Positions 3,048 through 25,957 of a DNA stretch of 26,092 nt are shown here, in pieces. Position 1 is the stretch's first letter; every line of letters begins with the position of its first letter. The stretch comes from a virus: the IMG/VR virus record IMGVR_UViG_3300023284_002908, positions 1-26,092 of that record; one strand, given 5' to 3'. The position numbers were made by a program, and so were the translations under genes. The notes beneath the pieces are model-generated. The model was not told the DNA's origin. It made no database searches and was given only the letters and a program-made list of their open reading frames with translations.

Positions 3048-4337
3048 CTAGGCACTCGCGTTCTTTATTACGATGTCAGTTGGTGGCTTTAGTTTGTCAT
3101 AGACTTGCTTGTTAGTGGTTATCTCTGCTTCTCCACCTGTGCCTGCAATGAGTAACTTCTCACCATATCTCTTTGGGTTCATTATGAGGTAGCCAATAAA
3201 GTCGTGAATGATGTTGTAATCAGCAAATTTCTTAGCATCGTATTCAGAGTCCACTACATAAGGTCCATCGAGTTCATAGGAACCTTCGTTGGTAAGTGCA
3301 TAGACAGTCTTTCGTGGTACATATGGAGAGATGATTGCAACACCACCGTATTCTTCCATTCCTTTGAATGGTACTACTCCAAATCCTCTTGGTGCATTTG
3401 TCTGTGCATATGCAAAGGAGAACCAGTTGGATAGGTAATCTTTGTAGTCAAGTGGGTTGAATATCCAATATTTGATGTAGTTGAAGAATAGGTTGAAGTG
3501 TTGTAGATAGACGTTTACAAATTCTCTTGGTGCATCATTGGTTGCATGTGGTACACCTTCTGTTCCAGTAGCAGTAAAGTCTGGCAAGTCACCAAATACT
3601 GAACTTTTAACTAGAGTGGATAGTTCCTTGAGAGCCAAGAGTTCTCTGGCTCTTGTCATTTGGATTTGGCCTTGAGCGATTGAGGTAGTGAAAGGATCAA
3701 TGGTTGCTTCCAGTCTGTCTTCTCTGCTGGAATAAGTATGTACATCATTTCTGAATATTCTGAATTCGTTTTGTCCGTATTCTGTGTAGTTAATCTCTGG
3801 CTCAGAGAGTCTCTGGACTTGGATGTTAACTGCAGGCCAGCCCATCTCTGGAATCTTGCCTCGAAGTCTATCAAGGGCAATGTGCTTGAATGCTGTAGTA
3901 ATGTAACTTGGCTGTTCCAAGTGACCTACAATCTCGTTTACAAACTGAACGATAGTTAGTTGGTTGGTGTTGTCACCATTTACAACTGCTGCTTGATATT
4001 CTTGTTGAAGTTGTGCAAGTTCCCTGACAATTGAAGCATCATATCTGCCTCTGGATTTTCTCTTAATGTTGTTTAATTTGAGTTGGATTCTCTTGGCCGC
4101 AGAAAGTTCTTGTTTTACTTCGGTGAGTTTGTAACTTGTGTTAGTTACGCCCTCAAGTGCTGCTGCTAGATATGCAGCATCTTCTGCTTTGGGGGTTTTG
4201 ATATTTATTGGATTTTCTACTGGATCAAAGGAAGCAAGATATTCATTCTCAAATCCAATGTTTCTGTCATCATCAATTGAACCAGTATAGACTGCTCCAA
4301 GTTTTGGCAAGAAGGTGTATTGTTGAACGTCACCCAA
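3048..4337 (-). CDS. Probable major capsid protein (HK97-type)
   Basis: At 429 residues it is the right size, and it directly follows a coiled-coil scaffold gene and a small decoration-like gene. Residues 70-118 form a charged helical region (KLTEVKQELSAAKRIQLK onward) like a delta domain. After NGDNTNQLTIVQFV (residues 120-133) come strand-rich segments, aromatic loops (FNLFFNYIKYWIFNPLDY) and a C-terminal domain with FKGMEEYGGVAIISPYVP. The protease gene contains an almost identical NDDNTNQLTIVPFV, possibly a shared processing site. The start is TTG, one base after the upstream stop. The HK97-fold call is from context and layout; no sequence search was possible. Confidence 0.7.
   Translation of the reverse strand: MGDVQQYTFLPKLGAVYTGSIDDDRNIGFENEYLASFDPVENPINIKTPKAEDAAYLAAALEGVTNTSYKLTEVKQELSAAKRIQLKLNNIKRKSRGRYDASIVRELAQLQQEYQAAVVNGDNTNQLTIVQFVNEIVGHLEQPSYITTAFKHIALDRLRGKIPEMGWPAVNIQVQRLSEPEINYTEYGQNEFRIFRNDVHTYSSREDRLEATIDPFTTSIAQGQIQMTRARELLALKELSTLVKSSVFGDLPDFTATGTEGVPHATNDAPREFVNVYLQHFNLFFNYIKYWIFNPLDYKDYLSNWFSFAYAQTNAPRGFGVVPFKGMEEYGGVAIISPYVPRKTVYALTNEGSYELDGPYVVDSEYDAKKFADYNIIHDFIGYLIMNPKRYGEKLLIAGTGGEAEITTNKQVYDKLKPPTDIVIKNASA
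3939..3980 (-). repeat. Motif shared with the protease gene (capsid copy)
   Basis: Encodes N-G-D-N-T-N-Q-L-T-I-V-Q-F-V, residues 120-133 of the capsid protein, at the boundary between the charged helical N-terminal region and the presumed mature shell domain. Partner of the copy at 7615-7656. Confidence 0.7.
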
Positions 4338-4338
4338 C

Positions 4339-4794
4339 TTAGATCGTCCCCGTTAAAATTATCATGATGTCATTTGCAACTGAAACTCGTAACTGTTCAT
4401 GGTCTTCATGATGGTTACGTGCTCTGCCAATTATTCTACCTAGATCTATATCTGTAATAGCAGCAGCAGTCATAGTTTGAACTGTTGCAGCAAAAGCGAA
4501 TTTAACTAATGCCGTTGGTCTGACACTTGCAGCTACAATGAATGGAATTGCACTTCCTGGGACTGCTACCTGTACTTCCAAGTCTCCAGTTGTAAATTTG
4601 TTTAATGCAAAAGCATATCCAAGAGCTACACTAGCATCATTAGTTTCTAATCTATCAAAGTCTCCTGCAGCATCTGGAACTAGCACATCCAAGAATTGGT
4701 ATGCAGTTGGTACGGCAACAAGTTTTGCTTTGTAGACATACCATGGCTCGTAGGATGTTGGGAACCTGACTGCTCCTTCTAACAGAACTGGCAT
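4339..4794 (-). CDS. Probable capsid decoration protein
   Basis: A 151-residue protein rich in Ala, Val and Thr, with many short strands, for example AKLVAVPTAYQFLDVLVPDA and DLEVQVAVPGSAIPFIVAAS. Its position between scaffold and major capsid genes is typical of head decoration or stabilisation proteins. A histidine-rich loop (RNHHEDHEQLR) near the C-terminus is unusual. The ATG overlaps the stop of the scaffold gene as TAATG, which implies coordinated synthesis. The decoration role is inferred from size, composition and gene order. Confidence 0.6.
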   Translation of the reverse strand: MPVLLEGAVRFPTSYEPWYVYKAKLVAVPTAYQFLDVLVPDAAGDFDRLETNDASVALGYAFALNKFTTGDLEVQVAVPGSAIPFIVAASVRPTALVKFAFAATVQTMTAAAITDIDLGRIIGRARNHHEDHEQLRVSVANDIMIILTGTI

Positions 4795-5474
4795 TAAGCA
4801 AACAACTCCTGGTCAGTCATCTTATCCACCTTGGCTGAATATTCTTGATTAATGGAACCTGTAAATTCTGTACCGTAACCTTTACCCATTGCAATTGGTT
4901 CTGGTGTAGTTTTAACTCCTGACAATTCTATGACAGGTTGGGCTTTTTCAATAGCTGAATCTAATTGCTGAGGAGTCATTTTATTCCAGTCTGCGGTGTA
5001 TTCTGCAAGTTTAGATTTATCTACATGTTGTTCATACGCTGCCTGTAAAATTTGTAACTTTGGTTTTTTGATAATATTATCTTGATATGCTAACTGTGCT
5101 TTCATTGCTTTCTTTTCCTCGTCATTCTCATATTCTGCTTTCTTTCCAGTTTGGGTGTGCTCGTCATCTTTGTGAGGAACTTCGACTGCTGATTTGATTA
5201 GTGCCTCTCTTTTGTCTTTGTCATCCTCTTCCATGGCTTTTAGAACTGCTTTGAGAACTGCATCATGCTTTTCCTTCTCCTCATCTTGAGCATGCTTGGA
5301 CTCTTTTTCCTTCTCATCCATGTCTGCTTTGTGTTTCTCATCCATCTCGTGCATGGCATCTTTATGCTCTTTATCCATGTGTTCCATAGCATCCTTGTGC
5401 TCTTTGTCCTTCTCATCTACTTGACCAGTTAGCTCATCTACTTTAGCTGAGAGTTCTACTAGTGATGGAGGCAT
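4794..5474 (-). CDS. Probable scaffold protein with coiled coil
   Basis: The first 100 residues are almost purely charged helix with degenerate tandem repeats of an EHKDAM-type unit (DKEHKDAMEHMDKEHKDAMH, then EKHKADMDEKEKE). Repeats start near residue 22 with a period of about 12-14. The rest is helical with a conserved-looking tail (GTEFTGSINQEYSAKVD). A long coiled coil immediately upstream of the decoration and capsid genes is the usual layout of an assembly scaffold. A minus-strand TATA-like box at 5501-5510 lies 31 nt before the ATG, so this gene probably opens the capsid transcript. No catalytic motif is seen, so it is not itself a protease. Confidence 0.65.
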   Translation of the reverse strand: MPPSLVELSAKVDELTGQVDEKDKEHKDAMEHMDKEHKDAMHEMDEKHKADMDEKEKESKHAQDEEKEKHDAVLKAVLKAMEEDDKDKREALIKSAVEVPHKDDEHTQTGKKAEYENDEEKKAMKAQLAYQDNIIKKPKLQILQAAYEQHVDKSKLAEYTADWNKMTPQQLDSAIEKAQPVIELSGVKTTPEPIAMGKGYGTEFTGSINQEYSAKVDKMTDQELFA

Positions 5475-5500
5475 ATTCTTACTTTGACTAAAGTCGTGTA

Positions 5501-5527
5501 TCTATTTAACCAAAATGTTTTATTACT
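5501..5527. promoter_or_regulatory. Divergent promoter region for scaffold and small plus gene
   Basis: On minus, GTTAAATAGA (5501-5510) is a TATA-like box 31 nt from the scaffold ATG. On plus, TTTTATTACT (5518-5527) lies about 38 nt before the GTG at 5561. The two boxes are adjacent, so the late capsid operon and the small regulator-like gene fire outward from one site. Prediction by spacing only. Confidence 0.4.
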
Positions 5528-5560
5528 GTCAGTAACTGAAATGGTCGGGGAGTCATTGTA

Positions 5561-5725
5561 GTGCCAACTAAAGCCAAAACAGAAGTGATGGTACATGTAG
5601 CCGTGTATTTTACAAGAGCTGAGATCAAACAGATCAAGAAAAATGCTGGTCATGTGGTTCTCAAGACTAGTCCCTATCTGAGAAAATTCTATGTAGAAGC
5701 ATTAGGATTGAATGGAAAATCCTAG
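5561..5725 (+). CDS. Small protein with ribbon-helix-helix-like layout, 54 aa
   Basis: The frame opens at GTG 5561, with an in-frame stop shortly upstream, and closes at TAG 5723-5725. The product has a strand-like N-terminus (TEVMVHVAVYFT), a helix (RAEIKQIKKNAG) and a second helix with a serine cap (TSPYLRKFYVEALG). Strand, helix, turn, helix in about 45 residues is the layout of ribbon-helix-helix (Arc/CopG-type) DNA-binding dimers. It sits just upstream of an operator-bearing promoter (5728-5757), so it is a candidate for the repressor that binds it. The fold and role are inferred. Confidence 0.55.
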   Translation: MPTKAKTEVMVHVAVYFTRAEIKQIKKNAGHVVLKTSPYLRKFYVEALGLNGKS

Positions 5726-13071: not shown

Positions 13072-13788
13072 TTAGTATGGCAACCTGAATGCAGAGTGAG
13101 GCATTACATTATCAAGCACTGTGCCCTCTGGTTCCTCTTCTAGATCATACTCCTTGTACATGTCATCCTGTGAAGTCTCAAATGCCTTCTGCTCGTTGCG
13201 TCTTTTTTCGTATCCCAGGTTCTTTTGTTGGAACTCCATCACTGCATCCAAGGACATCTCCCAGCTATGCACCAAGTCGTTGTGTTTCCCAGATGGATGC
13301 CCAAATGATATCCTGCCAGTGTCAGTCTTTGTGACGAGCTCATGCATCATCTCTTTCTTGAGGATTCGCAGTAGCTTGGCAAATCTGGTGAATCCTTGCT
13401 GTTCTAGTTTTAGGTCGTTTGGCCATTCATACCCAGACTTGATGTAGGAATATCCAATCTGCTTGAGATGGAACTTTGTGTTGGATGTGCCAGAGTTTAC
13501 AAATTTAACTGGCATTATTTTTGATTCGCCATATTTCCGCTGCAACGCATTTGTGAGAAAGTCTTCCCTAGAGGTATCAATCTTAGCTATCATTGGTGGG
13601 AACCTGTTGAACTCTCTGATTTGTGCATCTATCATGTCATCAGGATCCATCTTCTTGAGTCGGATTATTCCGCACAGGAATGGTATCCACTTGAACTCTA
13701 CTCCTGGGCGGTTCAAATCTATCTTTGGCTTGAGTGGTAGGACATGCACTACATCAGTGTAATAATCTCCTTTGGTAGCTGGGTCTAT
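13072..13788 (-). CDS. terL: Terminase large subunit, nuclease half
   Basis: The open frame begins after an in-frame TGA (13791-13789). Its first residues, D-P-A-T-K-G-D-Y-Y-T-D-V-V, are the classic first motif of the RNase H-fold terminase nuclease, with the catalytic Asp at 13785-13783. The later KIDTSREDFL and GKHNDLVHSWEMSLDA carry the other metal-binding Asp residues. The only usual start in frame is GTG 13749, which would delete the catalytic motif. The preceding frame (ATG 13846, MEEKVNQPNKIAGFFHGIV) joins it sensibly after skipping one base near 13786. So a frameshift, recoding or sequence error is likely. The ATPase half lies 1.1 kb upstream. Confidence 0.8.
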   Translation of the reverse strand: MDPATKGDYYTDVVHVLPLKPKIDLNRPGVEFKWIPFLCGIIRLKKMDPDDMIDAQIREFNRFPPMIAKIDTSREDFLTNALQRKYGESKIMPVKFVNSGTSNTKFHLKQIGYSYIKSGYEWPNDLKLEQQGFTRFAKLLRILKKEMMHELVTKTDTGRISFGHPSGKHNDLVHSWEMSLDAVMEFQQKNLGYEKRRNEQKAFETSQDDMYKEYDLEEEPEGTVLDNVMPHSAFRLPY

Positions 13789-13846
13789 TCACAATTCCAT
13801 GGAAGAATCCAGCAATCTTGTTTGGTTGATTGACTTTCTCTTCCAT
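13754..13846 (-). CDS. Short frame supplying the 5' end of the TerL nuclease
   Basis: Starts at ATG 13846, two bases after the HNH stop codon, and encodes 30 residues. Residues 4-14 (K-V-N-Q-P-N-K-I-A-G-F) repeat the start of the truncated frame on the other side of the HNH gene (14425-14390). The continuation F-H-G-I-V would abut D-P-A-T-K-G-D of the nuclease if one base were removed near 13786, giving the usual strand-Asp order. I read it as the true N-terminus of the nuclease half rather than a separate gene. Confidence 0.5.
   Translation of the reverse strand: MEEKVNQPNKIAGFFHGIVNRPSYQRRLLH
13805..13837 (-). repeat. Direct repeat flanking the HNH gene, downstream copy
   Basis: 33 bp encoding K-V-N-Q-P-N-K-I-A-G-F, 27 of 33 bases identical to 14390-14422. 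Sequence similarity ends exactly after GGATTC in both copies, which suggests the insertion boundary. Confidence 0.65.
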
Positions 13847-13847
13847 G

Positions 13848-14354
13848 TTATATGACCACCTCCATTGACAGTAAATTAAGAGCCCATCTGCGCACACATC
13901 TTAGCAAATTAAGTTCTTCTTTTCTGTCGTTATATTGTTTTCTTCTTCGTATATTATTTGTCATATTATTGCATGTTCTACAAGTTCTTTTACCAGTTTT
14001 TTTAACAATTAGATTATAACCTGAAAATAGGTGTCCTCGCTTGCAATTAGTTTTCTTTGAGTTAATAGTTGATATTTGGGTTTCTGCTCTTTTTAGATTC
14101 TCTCTACAAGTAACCTGCTCTAGATGATCAGGATTGACACATGATTTATTTTTACATAAATGATCTATTTGAAGATTAGGATCTAGTTTACCCTTATGAA
14201 TAAGATAGGAGAACCTGTGGGCTCTCTTACCAATTTTTGTAGAATAGTACCCATATCCATCTTTATCTAAACTTGCTTGCCATTCCCAACAGTCAGTAGT
14301 GAATAGAACTTTATTCCAGAAATTATTGATTTGTTTTTGAGTCACTAATTCCAT
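13848..14354 (-). CDS. HNH homing endonuclease
   Basis: A 168-residue protein with the HNH_3-type core: C-W-E-W-Q (22-26), G-Y-G-Y, an A-H-R-F-S-Y helix (45-50), I-D-H-L-C (63-67), C-V-N-P-D-H-L-E (72-79) and E-N-L-K-R. A second zinc-finger-like part follows (NCKRGHLF...GKRTCRTC, 103-128). Such enzymes are freestanding or intron-borne homing endonucleases of phages. A purine-rich ribosome-binding sequence (GAGGAGG) lies 11 nt before the ATG. It lies inside the terminase region between two copies of a 33-bp coding repeat, so it probably invaded there. Its codon use is more AT-rich than the terminase genes. Confidence 0.9.
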   Translation of the reverse strand: MELVTQKQINNFWNKVLFTTDCWEWQASLDKDGYGYYSTKIGKRAHRFSYLIHKGKLDPNLQIDHLCKNKSCVNPDHLEQVTCRENLKRAETQISTINSKKTNCKRGHLFSGYNLIVKKTGKRTCRTCNNMTNNIRRRKQYNDRKEELNLLRCVRRWALNLLSMEVVI

Positions 14355-14425
14355 ATTCTCAGTTGCCTCCTCTTATGTAAAAATAGTACGAATCCTGCAA
14401 TCTTGTTTGCTTGGTTAATCTTCAT
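14345..14425 (-). pseudogene. Truncated start of the TerL nuclease gene, upstream of HNH
   Basis: ATG 14425 overlaps the stop of the zinc-ribbon gene (ATGA), as for a genuine operon member. It reads MKINQANKIAGF, then diverges (VLFLHKRRQLRIWN) and stops after 26 codons, overlapping the HNH start. The first 12 residues match the frame that now begins at 13846. This looks like the original 5' end of the nuclease gene, cut off when the HNH gene inserted after GGATTC. Confidence 0.5.
14390..14422 (-). repeat. Direct repeat flanking the HNH gene, upstream copy
   Basis: 33 bp encoding K-I-N-Q-A-N-K-I-A-G-F. Differences from the copy at 13805-13837 are mostly silent or conservative, which points to an older or acquired copy under coding constraint rather than an assembly duplicate. 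Confidence 0.65.
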
Positions 14426-14577
14426 ATTCTTGGGAACTCCGTCTTTGATCTGTTTTGTCTTGGACTAAGTCTTTGTGAGCAGTGGCAAATAGGACAGTTT
14501 TTTTGTAAAGTAAAATCTTTGCGATTACATTCTACACAATAATGATACTCTCTTCCATATTTTGTTTTGTAGGTCAT
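14422..14577 (-). CDS. Small zinc-ribbon protein, 51 aa
   Basis: Encoded between the second zinc-ribbon gene and the broken nuclease start, overlapping both by ATGA. The protein has C-V-E-C-N-R-K-D-F (residues 14-22) and C-P-I-C-H-C (28-33), the two knuckles of a zinc ribbon, and a basic tail (SQRLSPRQNRSKTEF). Zinc-ribbon mini-proteins of this size often bind nucleic acid or act as adaptors. Being inside the terminase operon, it could assist packaging; that is inference. Confidence 0.65.
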   Translation of the reverse strand: MTYKTKYGREYHYCVECNRKDFTLQKNCPICHCSQRLSPRQNRSKTEFPRI

Positions 14578-14756
14578 GTCTTACTCCTTAGTCTAAACCT
14601 GTTTCCGCAGCACAAGCATCTGAATTCCTCTCCTTTGGTAATTACATTACAGACAGTACATTTCTTCCAACCATGCTTTACAGAGTAGATTCCAAGGCGA
14701 GAAGTGCCTACTCTGTAACCTGCCAAGTTATCACAGACTCCTTTACATGTGTGCAT
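14574..14756 (-). CDS. Thaumarchaeal-type zinc-ribbon protein, 60 aa
   Basis: Contains C-K-G-V-C (4-8), C-T-V-C (33-36) and C-L-C-C-G-N-R-F-R-L-R (47-57), ending in a basic R-S-K-T. The C-K-G-[IV]-C opening and C-x-C-C-G-x-[RK] ending match a small protein family that I recall as widespread in thaumarchaeal chromosomes, which supports the host assignment. A relative lies at 17707-17883. It overlaps both neighbours (TAATG, ATGA). The function of the family is unknown; metal binding is clear from the cysteines. Confidence 0.75.
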   Translation of the reverse strand: MHTCKGVCDNLAGYRVGTSRLGIYSVKHGWKKCTVCNVITKGEEFRCLCCGNRFRLRSKT

Positions 14757-14899
14757 TATTTTCCCCCTAACTCATCTTTAGCAACATCAGATATTGCGTA
14801 TATCTCATCAAAATCAAAAAAATCTTTAGGTATGGGTCTTCTTTTTTTAAACAGCTTGTACATCAGCCACCAATACACATTGTACTTCAATTCAATCAT
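14756..14899 (-). CDS. Small hypothetical protein, 47 aa
   Basis: ATG 14899 lies within the last codons of the TerL ATPase gene, and its TAA shares a base with the next ATG. The product has an aromatic start (IELKYNVYWWLMYKLFKKRR) and an acidic helical end (DFDEIYAISDVAKDEL). The overlaps show translational coupling. There is no cysteine, unlike its two downstream neighbours. Function unknown; possibly a linker component between the two terminase halves. Confidence 0.6.
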   Translation of the reverse strand: MIELKYNVYWWLMYKLFKKRRPIPKDFFDFDEIYAISDVAKDELGGK

Positions 14900-15944
14900 C
14901 CGTCAAGTTACTAACACTATCATCTTGTGTATTGAATTGCAAGAATAAATCAGTTGCTTGATCAGTCTTGTTTTTGAAATGTCCCTCTTCATACCATACG
15001 GTATCGGATGCAAAAAAGTCTGCTTCATAGAACGTGCCAAAGAGTGGTCCGAGTCTCTCCTTTTCTGATGTGATGAACTCTTCATCAAAGAATCCATCTC
15101 GCAGTCCTAGATCGTACTTGAACTTGAAGCAGTGAAAGTCTTGGTTAGGATTTGGTTTTATTCCATCAATCAGCTTCTGCTCGTACTTTTCCCAAGTGTC
15201 ATATATGGGACCTGCTGGTGCTCTTGCTGGGCATTCAACAATAACTGGTCCCTGACTGTTAGCACGTCTACTCAACATTGCAGCCCAGACTTGGTTCTGT
15301 CTATCAGAGGTTAGTTGAGAAATTGACATGTCTGAACTCCAGATGAATGCAACTCTTTTGTGAGATAATAAGGCTCCAGGGGACATTCCAACAATGATAA
15401 TCTTGGTTGGCATTCTTGGGTTCTTTGGATTGTGCAGATAGATGGTATGCACCTTTGTTACTTCATCCCTCAGCAGGCCTAATTGTGTAAAGTCCTTGGT
15501 GATTAGATAGTCTCTATATTTTGCAGAACCACCTAAAATTCTTCTAAAGTCTTGGGCATGGCTCTTTGCTTGGTCATCTGACTGTGCTTGGATGATTAGC
15601 TCCATTCCCATACAGTCAGTTAACGCATGATAGATTGTGATTAGGATGCAGAGTGATGAGATACCAATCTTTTGTGACTTTAAAATTAATAATAGTTTGA
15701 ACTTTAGGTGTAGGTTCCATATTCTCATCTGCAGTGGTGCAAGCATTACAATCTGCTCCTTGGTTAGTGAGTTGAAGAAGGGATTGCCAAGCTCGTTGTA
15801 GAGTAGTTGCAAGTCATGAGGAATGTCTAGTGGCAGATACAGTGTGCTTAGTGATGCTATTCTTGCAATTGCTGTGCTTATCTTCTTCTCCAGATAGTCT
15901 GTGTTGGTCTTGATCCTCTGCATCAAGAAGGAGTTGTTTTTCAA
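14892..15944 (-). CDS. terL: Terminase large subunit, ATPase half
   Basis: A 350-residue protein covering the packaging ATPase. It has an adenine-binding-type Q motif (LAPLQMRIW, 68-76), a degenerate Walker A of terminase type (K-S-Q-K-I-G-I-S-S, 89-97), a Walker B-like strand (VAFIWSSDMS, 198-207) and the coupling motif (VIVECPARAP, 234-243), followed by F-Y-E-A-D-F typical of the ATPase end. Walker B lacks the usual Asp-Glu pair, so catalytic Glu placement is uncertain. The protein stops about where the nuclease domain should begin; that domain is encoded at 13072-13788. The ATG overlaps the upstream stop (ATGA). Confidence 0.85.
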   Translation of the reverse strand: MKNNSFLMQRIKTNTDYLEKKISTAIARIASLSTLYLPLDIPHDLQLLYNELGNPFFNSLTKEQIVMLAPLQMRIWNLHLKFKLLLILKSQKIGISSLCILITIYHALTDCMGMELIIQAQSDDQAKSHAQDFRRILGGSAKYRDYLITKDFTQLGLLRDEVTKVHTIYLHNPKNPRMPTKIIIVGMSPGALLSHKRVAFIWSSDMSISQLTSDRQNQVWAAMLSRRANSQGPVIVECPARAPAGPIYDTWEKYEQKLIDGIKPNPNQDFHCFKFKYDLGLRDGFFDEEFITSEKERLGPLFGTFYEADFFASDTVWYEEGHFKNKTDQATDLFLQFNTQDDSVSNLTDD

Positions 15945-16437: not shown

Positions 16438-16685
16438 TATGATTTCAATCCAAAAATCTGTTGTGAAGCTAGATACACATCCATTGTAGCTTGATCGTAA
16501 GCTTCTCTTTGTTCACTGCTAAACTCATAGGCACAAACATCTGCATGACAGTTAATGTAATGTAACAGTATTTTTAATTTTTCATCATGTTCACATTTGA
16601 ATGTTTGACAGGCTAGACAGATGAGAGATGGTGGATGAGTTGTTGGTATTACCTGAGTAAATTTCTCATGTTTCTCTAACGTCAT
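16437..16685 (-). CDS. Zinc-finger-like protein, 82 aa
   Basis: Residues 20-52 carry a dense set of candidate zinc ligands: LICLACQTFKCEHDEKLK, then LHYINCHADVCAYEF. The spacing C-x2-C-x4-C-x-H ... H-x3-C-H-x3-C could hold two ions or a treble-clef-type site. The C-terminus is helical (AYDQATMDVYLASQQIF). ATG 16685 overlaps the TerS stop. A DNA-binding role next to terminase genes is plausible but unproven. Confidence 0.7.
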   Translation of the reverse strand: MTLEKHEKFTQVIPTTHPPSLICLACQTFKCEHDEKLKILLHYINCHADVCAYEFSSEQREAYDQATMDVYLASQQIFGLKS

Positions 16686-17377
16686 GTCTTCATCTCTGGC
16701 TGTGGCACATTAACTTGGAACAGTTCGTGCTTTGCTGCAATAGCTTTCTCAATCTCTCTATCCAGTACTGCCTCTGGTGGTGGTAGTATCTCTATTCCGT
16801 CATACTGTTGCTGTAGTTCTGCCACGAATGTGCGTTCCCCTTGTAATTGTCTCTGTATCCTTTCAACTAAGACACCAAAATTATTGTACATCATTAGATT
16901 ATTTGATAATTGTCTGAATATTGCAAATGCTACTTTGCTATCCAATCTTCCTATTGCATCAACTATTATTTCGCCAAGTTCAGTCTTTTCTATATCCTCT
17001 ACTACCGTATCCATGAGTGATTCCTGCACATCCCTCGTCTTAACTAGTCTTTTCGATACTGTCTCTACAATTTTTTCTGCATCTTTAATTTGAATTGAAA
17101 GTCCTTCTAGGGCTCTCTTTCTCACCTTAGTATTGCGTTCAATCCAAGTCTCTTCCTCTGCATCCGAGAGTTGCTGACCAAATTCCTTGAACTTCTTCAC
17201 AGCATACTCGTATCCACAGTTAACTTCATTTGAGGCAAACCATGGAGTCATTCCATCTTTGTCAAATAGTTTCCTCAGTGCAATATCCTGTTCTATCTTT
17301 ACCTTAGTGCTCTTCCTGCCTGTCTTTGCTTTTTGAGGTCGTTTACTCCGTGCGCCTTTTTCTTTTTTTACTGCCAT
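16682..17377 (-). CDS. terS: Putative terminase small subunit
   Basis: First gene of the packaging operon, 231 residues. A very basic N-terminal tail (KKEKGARSKRPQKAKTGRKS) precedes a helix-turn-helix-like region (residues 29-65, ALRKLFDKDGMTPWFASNEV and YAVKKFKEFG). A long helical coiled region follows (IKDAEKIVETVSKRLV and on), then a C-terminal tail ending in QVNVPQPEMKT. DNA-binding N-terminus, helical oligomerisation core and position upstream of TerL match terminase small subunits, which recognise packaging sites. The name rests on layout and position, not on a family signature. Confidence 0.55.
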   Translation of the reverse strand: MAVKKEKGARSKRPQKAKTGRKSTKVKIEQDIALRKLFDKDGMTPWFASNEVNCGYEYAVKKFKEFGQQLSDAEEETWIERNTKVRKRALEGLSIQIKDAEKIVETVSKRLVKTRDVQESLMDTVVEDIEKTELGEIIVDAIGRLDSKVAFAIFRQLSNNLMMYNNFGVLVERIQRQLQGERTFVAELQQQYDGIEILPPPEAVLDREIEKAIAAKHELFQVNVPQPEMKT

Positions 17378-17706: not shown

Positions 17707-17883
17707 TTAGGGCACGTATCTTTTCCTATGCTTACTTCTAAATGATAGTTTTCCTCCACAACATGGGCAGTTTGGTCCGTCTACATTGAATTTGTATTCA
17801 CATTGTTTGCATTTAGGCCACTTAATGGGACTGGTCATTGATACTTTATCCATTCTGTGGCAGATTCCTTTACACGTAGCCAT
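17707..17883 (-). CDS. Thaumarchaeal-type zinc-ribbon protein, 58 aa
   Basis: The longer frame to 17988 runs through the promoter, so I start at ATG 17883, 24 nt after the TATA-like CTTAATTTAG. The protein has C-K-G-I-C-H-R (4-10), C-K-Q-C-E-Y-K-F (25-32) and C-P-C-C-G-G-K-L (39-46), followed by a basic tail (SFRSKHRKRYVP). It is a close relative in layout of the 60-aa protein at 14574-14756. The operator half-site GTGCCC lies between TATA and start. Metal binding is clear; the biological role is unknown. Confidence 0.7.
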   Translation of the reverse strand: MATCKGICHRMDKVSMTSPIKWPKCKQCEYKFNVDGPNCPCCGGKLSFRSKHRKRYVP

Positions 17884-17890
17884 ACAATAG

Positions 17891-17924
17891 TGTACAATGG
17901 GCACTAAATTAAGTTTGCTAGTCT
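17891..17924 (-). promoter_or_regulatory. Repeated promoter module with operator, copy 1
   Basis: On minus: AGACTAGCAAACTTAATTTA, then GTGCCC, then ATTGTACA just before ATG 17883. The 26-bp part at 17899-17924 is identical to 18438-18463. TATA-like CTTAATTTAG lies about 24 nt before the start, so a protein bound to GTGCCCATTGTACA would cover the start site. Confidence 0.6.
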
Positions 17925-17953
17925 TTATTAACAAGAGATACTTATTTAAGTCG

Positions 17954-18190
17954 ATGGGCACATTGGTAACTGAGATGAAAATTGACATTTGGATAGGTGT
18001 ACAGAAGGAAAAGTATGAGGCAGCACTCGTAGACTACAAAAACAGGCTTGTAGTAGCCATAAAAGCAGAGAATCCTGAAGGAGTTGAGAGAGCAGCCACT
18101 GCACTTGAAAAGACACAATGGTATTTGGATCACATTCTTCCATTAATTGAGGAACTAGTTCCTGTTACTAAAAAAACTAAGAAGAAGTAG
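17954..18190 (+). CDS. Hypothetical helical protein, 78 aa
   Basis: The first plausible start is ATG 17954, about 27 nt after a TATA-like run at 17922-17931; ATG 17975 is an alternative. The frame itself opens earlier, at 17897, but that would overlap the opposite promoter. The product is helical (EKYEAALVDYKNRLVVAIKA, ERAATALEKTQWYLDHILPL) with a lysine-rich tail (KKTKKK). Two amphipathic helices suggest a small bundle or dimer. Its 3' end overlaps the convergent gene by 14 bp. Function unknown. Confidence 0.6.
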   Translation: MGTLVTEMKIDIWIGVQKEKYEAALVDYKNRLVVAIKAENPEGVERAATALEKTQWYLDHILPLIEELVPVTKKTKKK

Positions 18191-23970: not shown

Positions 23971-24642
23971 CTACGCTTTGTATGGGAGTAGACCTTCAAC
24001 CATCAGTCTCTCTTTCTGATGTCTGTTAGCTTTTTCAAGTCTGTCATGGCCTGTATCAGTGCTGTACACTCTCTCACCATAAGCTGTAGTTAGACCTTTA
24101 ATATCCCAGTCAGATAGTTCCCTGATTTTAGAATTGATGGAGGGATCCATGATATCCTTCCAGAGTTTTCTTTCAGAGTGTGGTCTTCCCAAGATGTGTA
24201 GCAACTCATGAATTATTACAGATATAATGTTGAGATTGCCAGATACATTCCACTGCCAATCTGTGAATATTACCATGATTCCCTTGAGAGCACCATCTGC
24301 ATATCCTGCATATGCTAGTACGTTGGTGTTAGTGGAATGGTATTGTGCATCCTTTCTCTTTGTAAATTCTATAACAATGTCTGCATCCTCTTCCGAGTCT
24401 GCCATGATAAATATGATAGGAATCTCAATGTCTACTTCGGTGAATGCAAGATTGAAAACTTTTCTTAGAAATACTTCCCTGGATTCATCAAAAATTTCTT
24501 CTTTGTGTTGACCTTTCACCCACCACTTTAGCTTGTCTTTGTTCCACACTCCACGCTGCTTTTCTAACTCGTACTGGGCTTCTAGTACAACATCCCCATC
24601 CTTCTGGATGTTTCCTTTTTCAATGGCACAAAGGAGTTGCAT
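23971..24642 (-). CDS. Zinc metalloprotease (metzincin-like), 223 aa
   Basis: Residues 145-155 read H-E-L-L-H-I-L-G-R-P-H, the extended zincin site HExxHxxGxxH with three zinc ligands and catalytic Glu. I-M-D-P at 164-167 is a good Met-turn. The upstream region (YAGYADGALKGIMVIFTDWQ) fits the edge strand and S1' region of matrixin-like folds. There is no signal peptide, so it acts inside the cell, in the virion, or after lysis. The C-terminal 40 residues are charged and helical. Neighbours are a second zincin and a holin-like protein. Degrading the S-layer or another host protein is inferred from context. Confidence 0.85.
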   Translation of the reverse strand: MQLLCAIEKGNIQKDGDVVLEAQYELEKQRGVWNKDKLKWWVKGQHKEEIFDESREVFLRKVFNLAFTEVDIEIPIIFIMADSEEDADIVIEFTKRKDAQYHSTNTNVLAYAGYADGALKGIMVIFTDWQWNVSGNLNIISVIIHELLHILGRPHSERKLWKDIMDPSINSKIRELSDWDIKGLTTAYGERVYSTDTGHDRLEKANRHQKERLMVEGLLPYKA

Positions 24643-24889: not shown

Positions 24890-25357
24890 TTATCTCCATA
24901 TTATCATTCTTGGATCTGGTTCAAACACTACTCTATGATCATCTGTCAAATCCTTATGTGTGATATTAGTTGAATTAAATTGATACTTGTTGTAGTCTGG
25001 TTCATTTGGGTTATCACAGTTGAACTTTGCCATTTCTGTTCCATGACCTATCCCCCAAGCGTGAAGAATCTCATGTTGTTTTACAGTACATCCCTGAGTT
25101 GCCCAATTATTTACAGAATCTTTTCGTAATTCAATGTGGTCAAAATTTCCTCTATAACATCCCTTGATTTCATATCCTAATGTTTCAAAACTACAAACGA
25201 AAATATTATCTACATAGTAAATTGAGACTTGTCTGATTCCCTTGTCTCCTCCTACCCATATCAATTCATCTGGTGTTACAGCTTCAATCCATTGTAGATA
25301 TCCAATTGTAAAAACAAGTATTACAAGTATGATAATAAAAAATTGAAGTGGAGTCAC
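24890..25357 (-). CDS. Membrane-anchored zinc metalloprotease, 155 aa
   Basis: I start at GTG 25357, which overlaps the upstream TGA as GTGA; GTG 25375 is an alternative. Residues 4-22 form an N-terminal hydrophobic helix (LQFFIIILVILVFTIGYLQW), placing the rest outside the membrane if it is an anchor or signal. Residues 95-105 are H-E-I-L-H-A-W-G-I-G-H, a full HExxHxxGxxH zincin site. Several cysteines (CSFET, GCYRG, GCTVKQ, FNCDN) would suit disulfides outside the cell. No clear Met-turn, so a minimal zincin. With the soluble zincin next door it is a good candidate for attack on surface proteins. Confidence 0.8.
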   Translation of the reverse strand: MTPLQFFIIILVILVFTIGYLQWIEAVTPDELIWVGGDKGIRQVSIYYVDNIFVCSFETLGYEIKGCYRGNFDHIELRKDSVNNWATQGCTVKQHEILHAWGIGHGTEMAKFNCDNPNEPDYNKYQFNSTNITHKDLTDDHRVVFEPDPRMIIWR

Positions 25358-25957
25358 TTGAATAGTTGCTCCCACTTTTCTTGGAATTTCTGTTTTCTGA
25401 TTTCTTCAGCTTGAGCTGCTCCGTCATCCAGTTTGTATTGTTTCCACTTGTCCTCGACATCGTTCTGAGTTTCTATGACATTACCATGAATGATTATTGG
25501 GTTTACTAATGGTTCACAACCAAGGAATTTTCTGGAGATTTCTGATATGTAATTGAGATCACATATTCCCTTGTTTGGTTCTAGTCCAAAGTTTGCTTCT
25601 TGCATTACTCTATCTTGTGACCATACTGGAACATCCTTTGCTATGTCACTATGATATGGTTGATTAGGCTCTTCCAATTCTGCTTGGTATCTATCCCAAT
25701 ATTCAGGTCCAAGAACAACTGGCTCAAAGACTGTATGTTGCCACTTACATTCCTCAACTGCTTTCTTGAGAATAGCATGGTTGCCTGTCAGTTCAAATGA
25801 TTTGAGATATGCCTCTGCTGGATTAATCCATAAACCTGATACTGTGAATCTATCATGTTGTTGGACTCCCCAAGCTTCTGTTGCTCCTCTTTGGCACTGT
25901 CCTAGATACTTGAGCATTTCACAATACTCTTTTCCAGCATTTGTCTTTGGAGGCCCC
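25354..25957 (-). CDS. Hypothetical protein, N-terminally truncated by the chimeric junction
   Basis: The visible viral part covers about 200 residues, beginning near P-P-K-T-N-A-G-K-E-Y-C. The longest frame continues to 26049, but those upstream residues come from foreign DNA. The protein has several cysteines (EYCEM, GQCQRG, VEECKWQH, GICDLN, LGCEP) and aromatic stretches (SGLWINPAEAYLKSFELTGN, VVLGPEYWDRYQAEL), with a charged helical tail (EEIRKQKFQEKWEQLFK). No family recognised. It is first in the protease operon; involvement in host-surface breakdown is a guess. Confidence 0.6.

Follow-up and report, generated by a model that had tools for sequence, protein, structure and literature searches.

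Tailed viruses normally make their packaging motor, the large terminase subunit TerL, as a single protein, which serves as a single-gene marker of these viruses and as a model for motors with a covalent link between ATPase and nuclease. The TerL proteins of Caudoviricetes of the Terminase_6N/6C type combine an ATPase with an RNase H-fold nuclease harboring three acidic motifs, and their gene follows one for a TerS-like protein (a candidate small terminase subunit), with head genes on the same strand. The stretch of DNA considered here, IMG/VR virus record IMGVR_UViG_3300023284_002908 (26,092 nt in all, hereafter the window), is a head-tailed virus contig of about 26 kb that resembles those systems in all these respects, but it has the motor in two genes, terL-N for the ATPase half and terL-C for the nuclease half, with other genes between them and with sequences that Pfam and PHROGs are not sensitive enough to detect. 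Judging from its sequence, this two-gene terminase is a real and conserved variant of the known motor.

Splits caused by homing endonucleases have been described for the topoisomerase of T4, the NrdA protein of Aeh1 and the polymerase of phage 25, and in the latter two cases activity of the two-chain enzyme has been reported (PMC2988022). Like T4 gene 39 - mobA - gene 60, the window has a split enzyme gene with a homing-type endonuclease gene between its parts, and like Aeh1 nrdA-a/mobE/nrdA-b and Aeromonas phage 25 gene 43A/43B it has such an endonuclease beside a split essential enzyme. In Aeh1 and phage 25, however, the endonuclease caused the split and the two chains work together (PMC2988022), whereas in the window the endonuclease probably came later and joint action of the halves is proposed. 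In gene 60 of T4, as in terL-C of the window and of its relative G401, a small insert breaks the frame close to the 5' end; the T4 insert is bypassed between matched GGA codons, with a UAG adjacent (PMC5009743). A GGA-UAG and a second GGA are similarly found in G401, while the window has no matched GGA pair, and in both viruses bypass is a proposal. The T4 system, a topoisomerase with a 50-nt bypass, further differs in the enzyme concerned, in insert length (5 and 7 nt here) and in that the terminase split exists without an endonuclease. Bypassing has also been proposed in the terminase gene of Streptomyces phage Hau3 (cited in PMC5009743), where the site and its context, by description, are different (UUA codon). 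A search of the open-access literature, which does not cover subscription papers, yielded no description of a terminase whose ATPase and nuclease are encoded by separate genes.

The two halves of the large terminase

The two genes are as follows.
14892..15944, minus strand: terL-N, putative ATPase half of the large terminase, 350 aa, with KSQKIGISS at residues 89-97
13072..13788, minus strand: terL-C, putative nuclease half, with IDPAT (motif I), KIDTS (motif II) and HND (motif III)

A preliminary description of this DNA had placed the ATPase half at 14892-15944 and the nuclease half at 13072-13788. Both frames are indeed open there on the minus strand, but the nuclease gene does not start at 13788: its true ATG is at 13846, in another frame. 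The same description had proposed alignment to full-length TerL proteins, and such an alignment was obtained for the ATPase half, whose profile aligns to residues 21-307 of the unsplit, 503-aa TerL of G229 (E=3.6e-31), a protein that itself matches the TerL family phrog_5909 (E=7.4e-10); the TerL family phrog_2 is matched by distant split relatives. The profile of the nuclease half aligns over motif III to a 466-aa protein (E=1.9e-6) that matches Pfam Terminase_6N and 6C, and detects TerL-C genes adjoining TerL-N genes in G392, G457 and others. Direct Pfam and PHROG searches returned no terminase match for either half. Nor did either half find a match in a tblastn search of a phage collection or in a sequence search of the PDB. 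The halves are identified as TerL because distant relatives bridge them to known terminases; by this route, terL-N is predicted to be an N-terminal packaging ATPase homologous to known TerL, and terL-C a C-terminal RNase H-fold nuclease with motifs I-III.

A search of related virus contigs, also suggested in the preliminary description, found the same split in the IMG/VR records G400 (46.2 kb), G401 (45.4 kb) and G402 (19.7 kb), which share with the window the set of TerS-like gene, terL halves, portal and head genes. No terL-C relatives other than these three were found in IMG/VR. Identities to the window in G400, G401 and G402 are 83, 60 and 66% for terL-N and 77, 55 and 57% for terL-C, in which the GID, KIDTS and HND motifs are conserved. 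Between the window and G400, terL-N is under purifying selection (dN/dS 0.11), and so is the nuclease half, for which synonymous sites are saturated and pN is only 0.16. Nowhere in this group are both TerL domains on one polypeptide: each of the four viruses has two genes, and the cut is always at the ATPase/nuclease junction. In the three relatives, terL-N stops soon after a conserved DD and terL-C starts 17-20 residues before GID. Neither IMG/VR nor the genomes searched yielded a close relative (>50% identity) whose terL is uninterrupted here.

More distant relatives from the phylum Nitrososphaerota are cut at the same junction, with halves that overlap by 19 nt in G392 and by 1 nt in G457 and that abut in G423; in G122, where they are 9 nt apart, the locus also contains TerS-, portal- and capsid-like genes. 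In a tree of the ATPase half, a single clade of unsplit TerLs (G285, G229 and G457b) is rejected (AU test, p=8e-8), and their branches are interspersed with those of split ones. Because they are scattered in this way, terL has either been split more than once at this junction or been split once and later joined again. The unsplit G229 and G285 proteins have no detectable match to the terL-C profile, though their ATPases match, which hints that the nuclease module may have been exchanged independently of the ATPase.

It is thus quite likely, from the sequences, that the two halves are separate polypeptides working as one terminase. TerL-N, the ATPase motor, and TerL-C, the RNase H-fold nuclease, would be cut at the interdomain linker and would associate non-covalently at the portal. 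That the motor would have to assemble in trans if the halves were separate polypeptides had been pointed out in the preliminary description, and the finding that all close relatives are split at the same place fits this view. The split is of long standing in these viruses, with the gap between the halves taking up accessory genes. If ATPase and nuclease are indeed separate, stably kept proteins, their coupling becomes directly testable.

ATPase-only loci in archaeal genomes

The genes of this region of the window, all on the minus strand, run from the TerS-like gene through the two terL halves to the portal gene (phrog_12, E=1.4e-9) and further head genes. The first of them stands upstream of terL-N:
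16682..17377, minus strand: candidate small terminase (TerS-like), 231 aa

Its name comes from its position, as no family match was found for it; the gene at the same place has 65% identity in G400 and 36% in G401.

Relatives of terL-N sit within chromosomes of metagenome-assembled genomes (MAGs) of Nitrososphaerota (Thaumarchaeota), and the host of the window virus therefore probably belongs to that phylum. In four thaumarchaeal loci the ATPase half stands alone beside a TerS-like gene. One (L007) belongs to Thaumarchaeota isolate B51T1B5 and two (L008 and L009) to one groundwater MAG; their terL-N genes encode 343-354 aa, are 59-70% identical to that of the window and end at an equivalent residue. 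The fourth, G305, has a more distant TerS-like and ATPase-only pair. L008 and L009, both flanked by host genes, share one order of integrase gene, TerS-like gene and terL-N, with 39% identity between their TerS-like genes and 82% between their terL-N genes (dN/dS 0.16 for the latter). No TerL-C or portal of this group was found in the genomes of L007 and of L008/L009.

An integrase and terminase genes without capsid genes are also found in NitKor-E1 and in the phage-inducible chromosomal islands (PICIs) of bacteria. NitKor-E1 has TerS and TerL and no other head-tail genes, and its function has been called enigmatic (Krupovic et al. 2019, PMC6563490). PICIs typically bring their own TerS and use the TerL of a helper, whereas L008 and L009 carry a TerS-like gene and the ATPase half only. 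By this comparison, the ATPase-only loci are possible satellites. They might equally be decayed proviruses from which the nuclease and head genes were lost, a reading to which we give an even chance. The loci have no clear att sites, only a 16-nt A-rich pair having been found in L009, the MAGs are incomplete, and decayed terL copies and fragments are common in related genomes, all of which would suit decay. Against it, every locus has an intact terL-N of the same length, L008 and L009 have kept one gene order and a terL-N under constraint, and a comparable terminase-only element is known in NitKor-E1 (PMC6563490). A two-gene terminase, if true, would explain the half-genes that terminase searches find in thaumarchaeal genomes, and would suggest a mechanism for the enigmatic terminase-only integrated elements of these archaea.

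L009 also encodes, at 3825-5294, a 489-aa protein with a Walker-A-like motif (SNSSSTGKS) and no convincing family match, which is perhaps a replication ATPase.

The start of terL-C and its frame break

The 5' region of terL-C comprises three features.
13857..13863, minus strand: Shine-Dalgarno sequence GGAGGTG of terL-C
13796..13846, minus strand: true 5' part of terL-C, encoding MEEKVNQPNKIAGFFHG, with 82% identity over 17 aa to the intact terL-C of G400
13789..13795, minus strand: 7-nt insertion ATTGTGA, which separates the Gly codon from the Ile-Asp codons of motif I

The ATG at 13846 lies 58 nt upstream of 13788, in a different frame from the rest of the gene. GGAGGTG also precedes the GTG start of terL-C in G401, and GGAGG the start in G400. 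In the window the seven extra bases, mapped by sequence comparison with L001, L002 and L006, part MEEKVNQPNKIAGFFHG from IDPATKGDYYTD, while in G400 the corresponding stretch, MTEGKINQPNPIAGFFHGIDPATKGDYYTD, is in one frame; terL-C of G400 and G402 runs in a single frame through GFFHG-IDPAT. In G401 the same codon boundary, immediately ahead of the catalytic Asp, holds an insertion of 5 nt, TAGGA. The junctions thus read GGA-ATTGTGA-ATA-GAC in the window, GGA-TAGGA-ATT-GAT in G401, GGA-ATA-GAT in G400 and GGC-ATT-GAC in G402. A sequencing error at this point in two independent records is unlikely, because the other genes shared with G400 are nearly all unbroken in the window, the exception being one 64-aa ORF (5459-5653, minus strand). 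This ORF matches G400 in two frames, in pieces of 81 and 51% identity, and reflects either a difference in frame or non-coding sequence conserved upstream of a 226-aa gene. Since two inserts of different lengths occupy one boundary, a shared cause may be supposed, for which a target of the HNH endonuclease encoded between the halves is the obvious candidate. The HNH protein would home into the sequence coding for motif I, and the 7-nt insertion before the catalytic Asp may stem from such homing, the cleavage site having been lost; inserts of 5-7 nt would block re-cleavage and be recoded in translation.

That terL-C is recoded past its insertion, as T4 gene 60 is, seems to us a tentative proposal, a little short of an even prospect. 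In G401 the mRNA reads GGA-UAG-GA, with a take-off GGA, a stop and an overlapping second GGA, so that both the matched codons and the stop of a bypass site are present, as they are not in the window. Ribosomes that left the first GGA and landed on the second, passing over UA, would make GFFHG-IDVA, with a -1 shift on CUUUUUC as an alternative; in the window only a hop from AUU to AUA or a +1 shift would serve. RNA structure gave no signal at the break in the window, G400 or G402 and a weak one in G401 (z -1.7). Re-initiation after the break was considered and rejected: the first canonical start is GTG 13749 in the window and, in G401, a GTG directly after the Asp codon, and the catalytic Asp would be lost.

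The inserts might instead be endonuclease lesions in defective genomes or proviruses, with terL-C of the window and G401 inactivated and no recoding. Such an inactivation would account for a window sequence without an obvious slippery site, for shifts in different directions (+1 and -1) and for the loss of the catalytic Asp by canonical downstream re-initiation, and decayed copies are common in host genomes. It is nevertheless rather unlikely: purifying selection on the sequence downstream of the break is still strong within the group, hardly any other shared gene is broken, and G401 has matched GGA codons around its stop. As short sequences open to experiment, the twin frame breaks offer a candidate case of translational bypassing in a virus of archaea.

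A more far-reaching scheme can be drawn, in which the bipartite terminase of tailed viruses of Nitrososphaerota has exchangeable motor and nuclease subunits, satellites carrying TerS and the ATPase half only borrow the nuclease of a helper, and some viruses make their nuclease only by bypass of a 5-7-nt insert next to the catalytic Asp codon; as a whole we find it doubtful. Returning to two separate polypeptides that act as one terminase, three observations weigh against this account. The AlphaFold models of both halves are of low confidence (mean pLDDT 46 for terL-N and 36 for terL-C). There is no recognised +1 slippery site before ATA GAC in the window, recoding there being argued only from conservation. 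Finally, G401 has no HNH gene between its halves, yet four HNH_3 genes elsewhere.

A second terL of G457 (L058, G457:C1:347085-348005) consists of overlapping ORFs, its frame being broken between nuclease motifs I and II, and is a case of either programmed frameshift or decay.

The genes between the halves

In the window, the gap contains five features.
14756..14899, minus strand: 47-aa ORF, overlapping terL-N by 8 nt (14892-14899)
14574..14756, minus strand: zinc ribbon 1, 60 aa, with 1 nt in common with the 47-aa gene (TAATG, 14756)
14422..14577, minus strand: zinc ribbon 2, 51 aa, with an ATGA overlap with zinc ribbon 1 (14574-14577)
14390..14425, minus strand: 36-nt relic of the 5' end of terL-C, encoding MKINQANKIAGF, between zinc ribbon 2 and the HNH gene
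13848..14354, minus strand: HNH homing-type endonuclease, 168 aa (PF13392, E=5.8e-12; phrog_826, E=1.3e-40)

Both the HNH gene between the halves and the ATGA/TAATG-type overlaps that link the ATPase gene and the first three small genes (8 nt, 1 nt and ATGA) had been recognized in the preliminary description. The relic matches the live 5' end of terL-C at 25 of 30 nt, compared with 19-20 for the next best site in the genome and 17-20 in 20 shuffled genomes, and its ATG overlaps the stop of zinc ribbon 2. From stop to start, the gap measures 1,045 nt in the window, 987 in G400, 454 in G401 and 3,438 in G402, where it holds about eight small genes, and its genes are mostly unlike among the four viruses. 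At this place G400 has a different type of HNH gene, which overlaps the genes next to it. Remnant halves in G661, G672, G554 and G622 are separated by a different gene in each gap, two of them on the opposite strand. Genes seen in such remnant gaps (L082, L084, L085, L086, L087), all named by eye, include a 352-aa ion-channel-like gene on the other strand, a 365-aa secreted protease-like gene, and 194-aa antisense, 185-aa and 156-aa mechanosensitive-channel-like genes.

The HNH gene of the window is, by this comparison, apparently a latecomer that inserted into the 5' end of terL-C, and not the cause of the split. The ancestral order was probably terL-N, 47-aa gene, zinc ribbon 1, zinc ribbon 2 and terL-C, with every start overlapping the preceding stop. 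The HNH cassette would have been inserted after codon 12 of the old terL-C, which would have been restored behind it with a second 5' end and a new Shine-Dalgarno start, leaving the relic upstream. That HNH insertion alone cut a terL that was one gene in a recent ancestor is very unlikely. An HNH gene does lie between the halves in the window and in G400, and T4 and Aeh1 offer precedents (PMC2988022), but the split is independent of HNH, because G401 and G402 are split without one in the gap, the G402 record, which has the longest gap, having no HNH_3 gene at all; several distant relatives have overlapping or abutting halves and no HNH, and terL-C had its own start before the HNH gene arrived, since the relic carries that start. 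The preliminary description had allowed for an HNH insertion as the cause, which the G402 record contradicts, and had favored something other than an ordinary HNH or intron split, which the relatives without HNH and the search for introns uphold.

HNH genes often ride in introns, and intron sites are usually near conserved active-site motifs. An intron in the gap (group I/II or archaeal bulge-helix-bulge, BHB) that carries the HNH gene and leaves a mature mRNA encoding one TerL would fit these habits, the break lying close to such a motif, but is highly improbable, because an Rfam scan at E up to 5, which included no model of BHB motifs, gave no match, the gap varies from 454 to 3438 nt and in its content, some gap genes are antisense, the halves overlap or abut in G392, G457 and G423, and terL-C has its own Shine-Dalgarno sequence and start.

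As for the small genes, Pfam and PHROG searches found no homologue of the 47-aa ORF. Homologues of zinc ribbon 1 lie between the halves in G400 (40% identity), G401 (32%) and G402 (32%), with four invariant Cys, so that one zinc ribbon is found there in all four viruses; in more distant split lineages there is none at this place. The zinc ribbon kept between the halves may or may not be part of the motor. A third zinc-ribbon protein, encoded at 17707-17988 (minus strand), resembles those between the terL halves.

Among the other loci inspected, L011 and L013, which came from a DNA motif search, were without TerL and were dropped. The G401 homologue of window 3048-4337 exits the end of its record and continues at its start (L043, L045), and G401 is therefore probably a circular or circularly permuted complete genome. 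Two metalloprotease-like proteins are encoded on the minus strand of the window, at 23971-24642 and 24890-25375, with HELLHILG-type and HEILHAWG-type motifs; a homologue of the former is encoded in G400, and the provirus G122 contains a similar ORF (L033:17432-18000).

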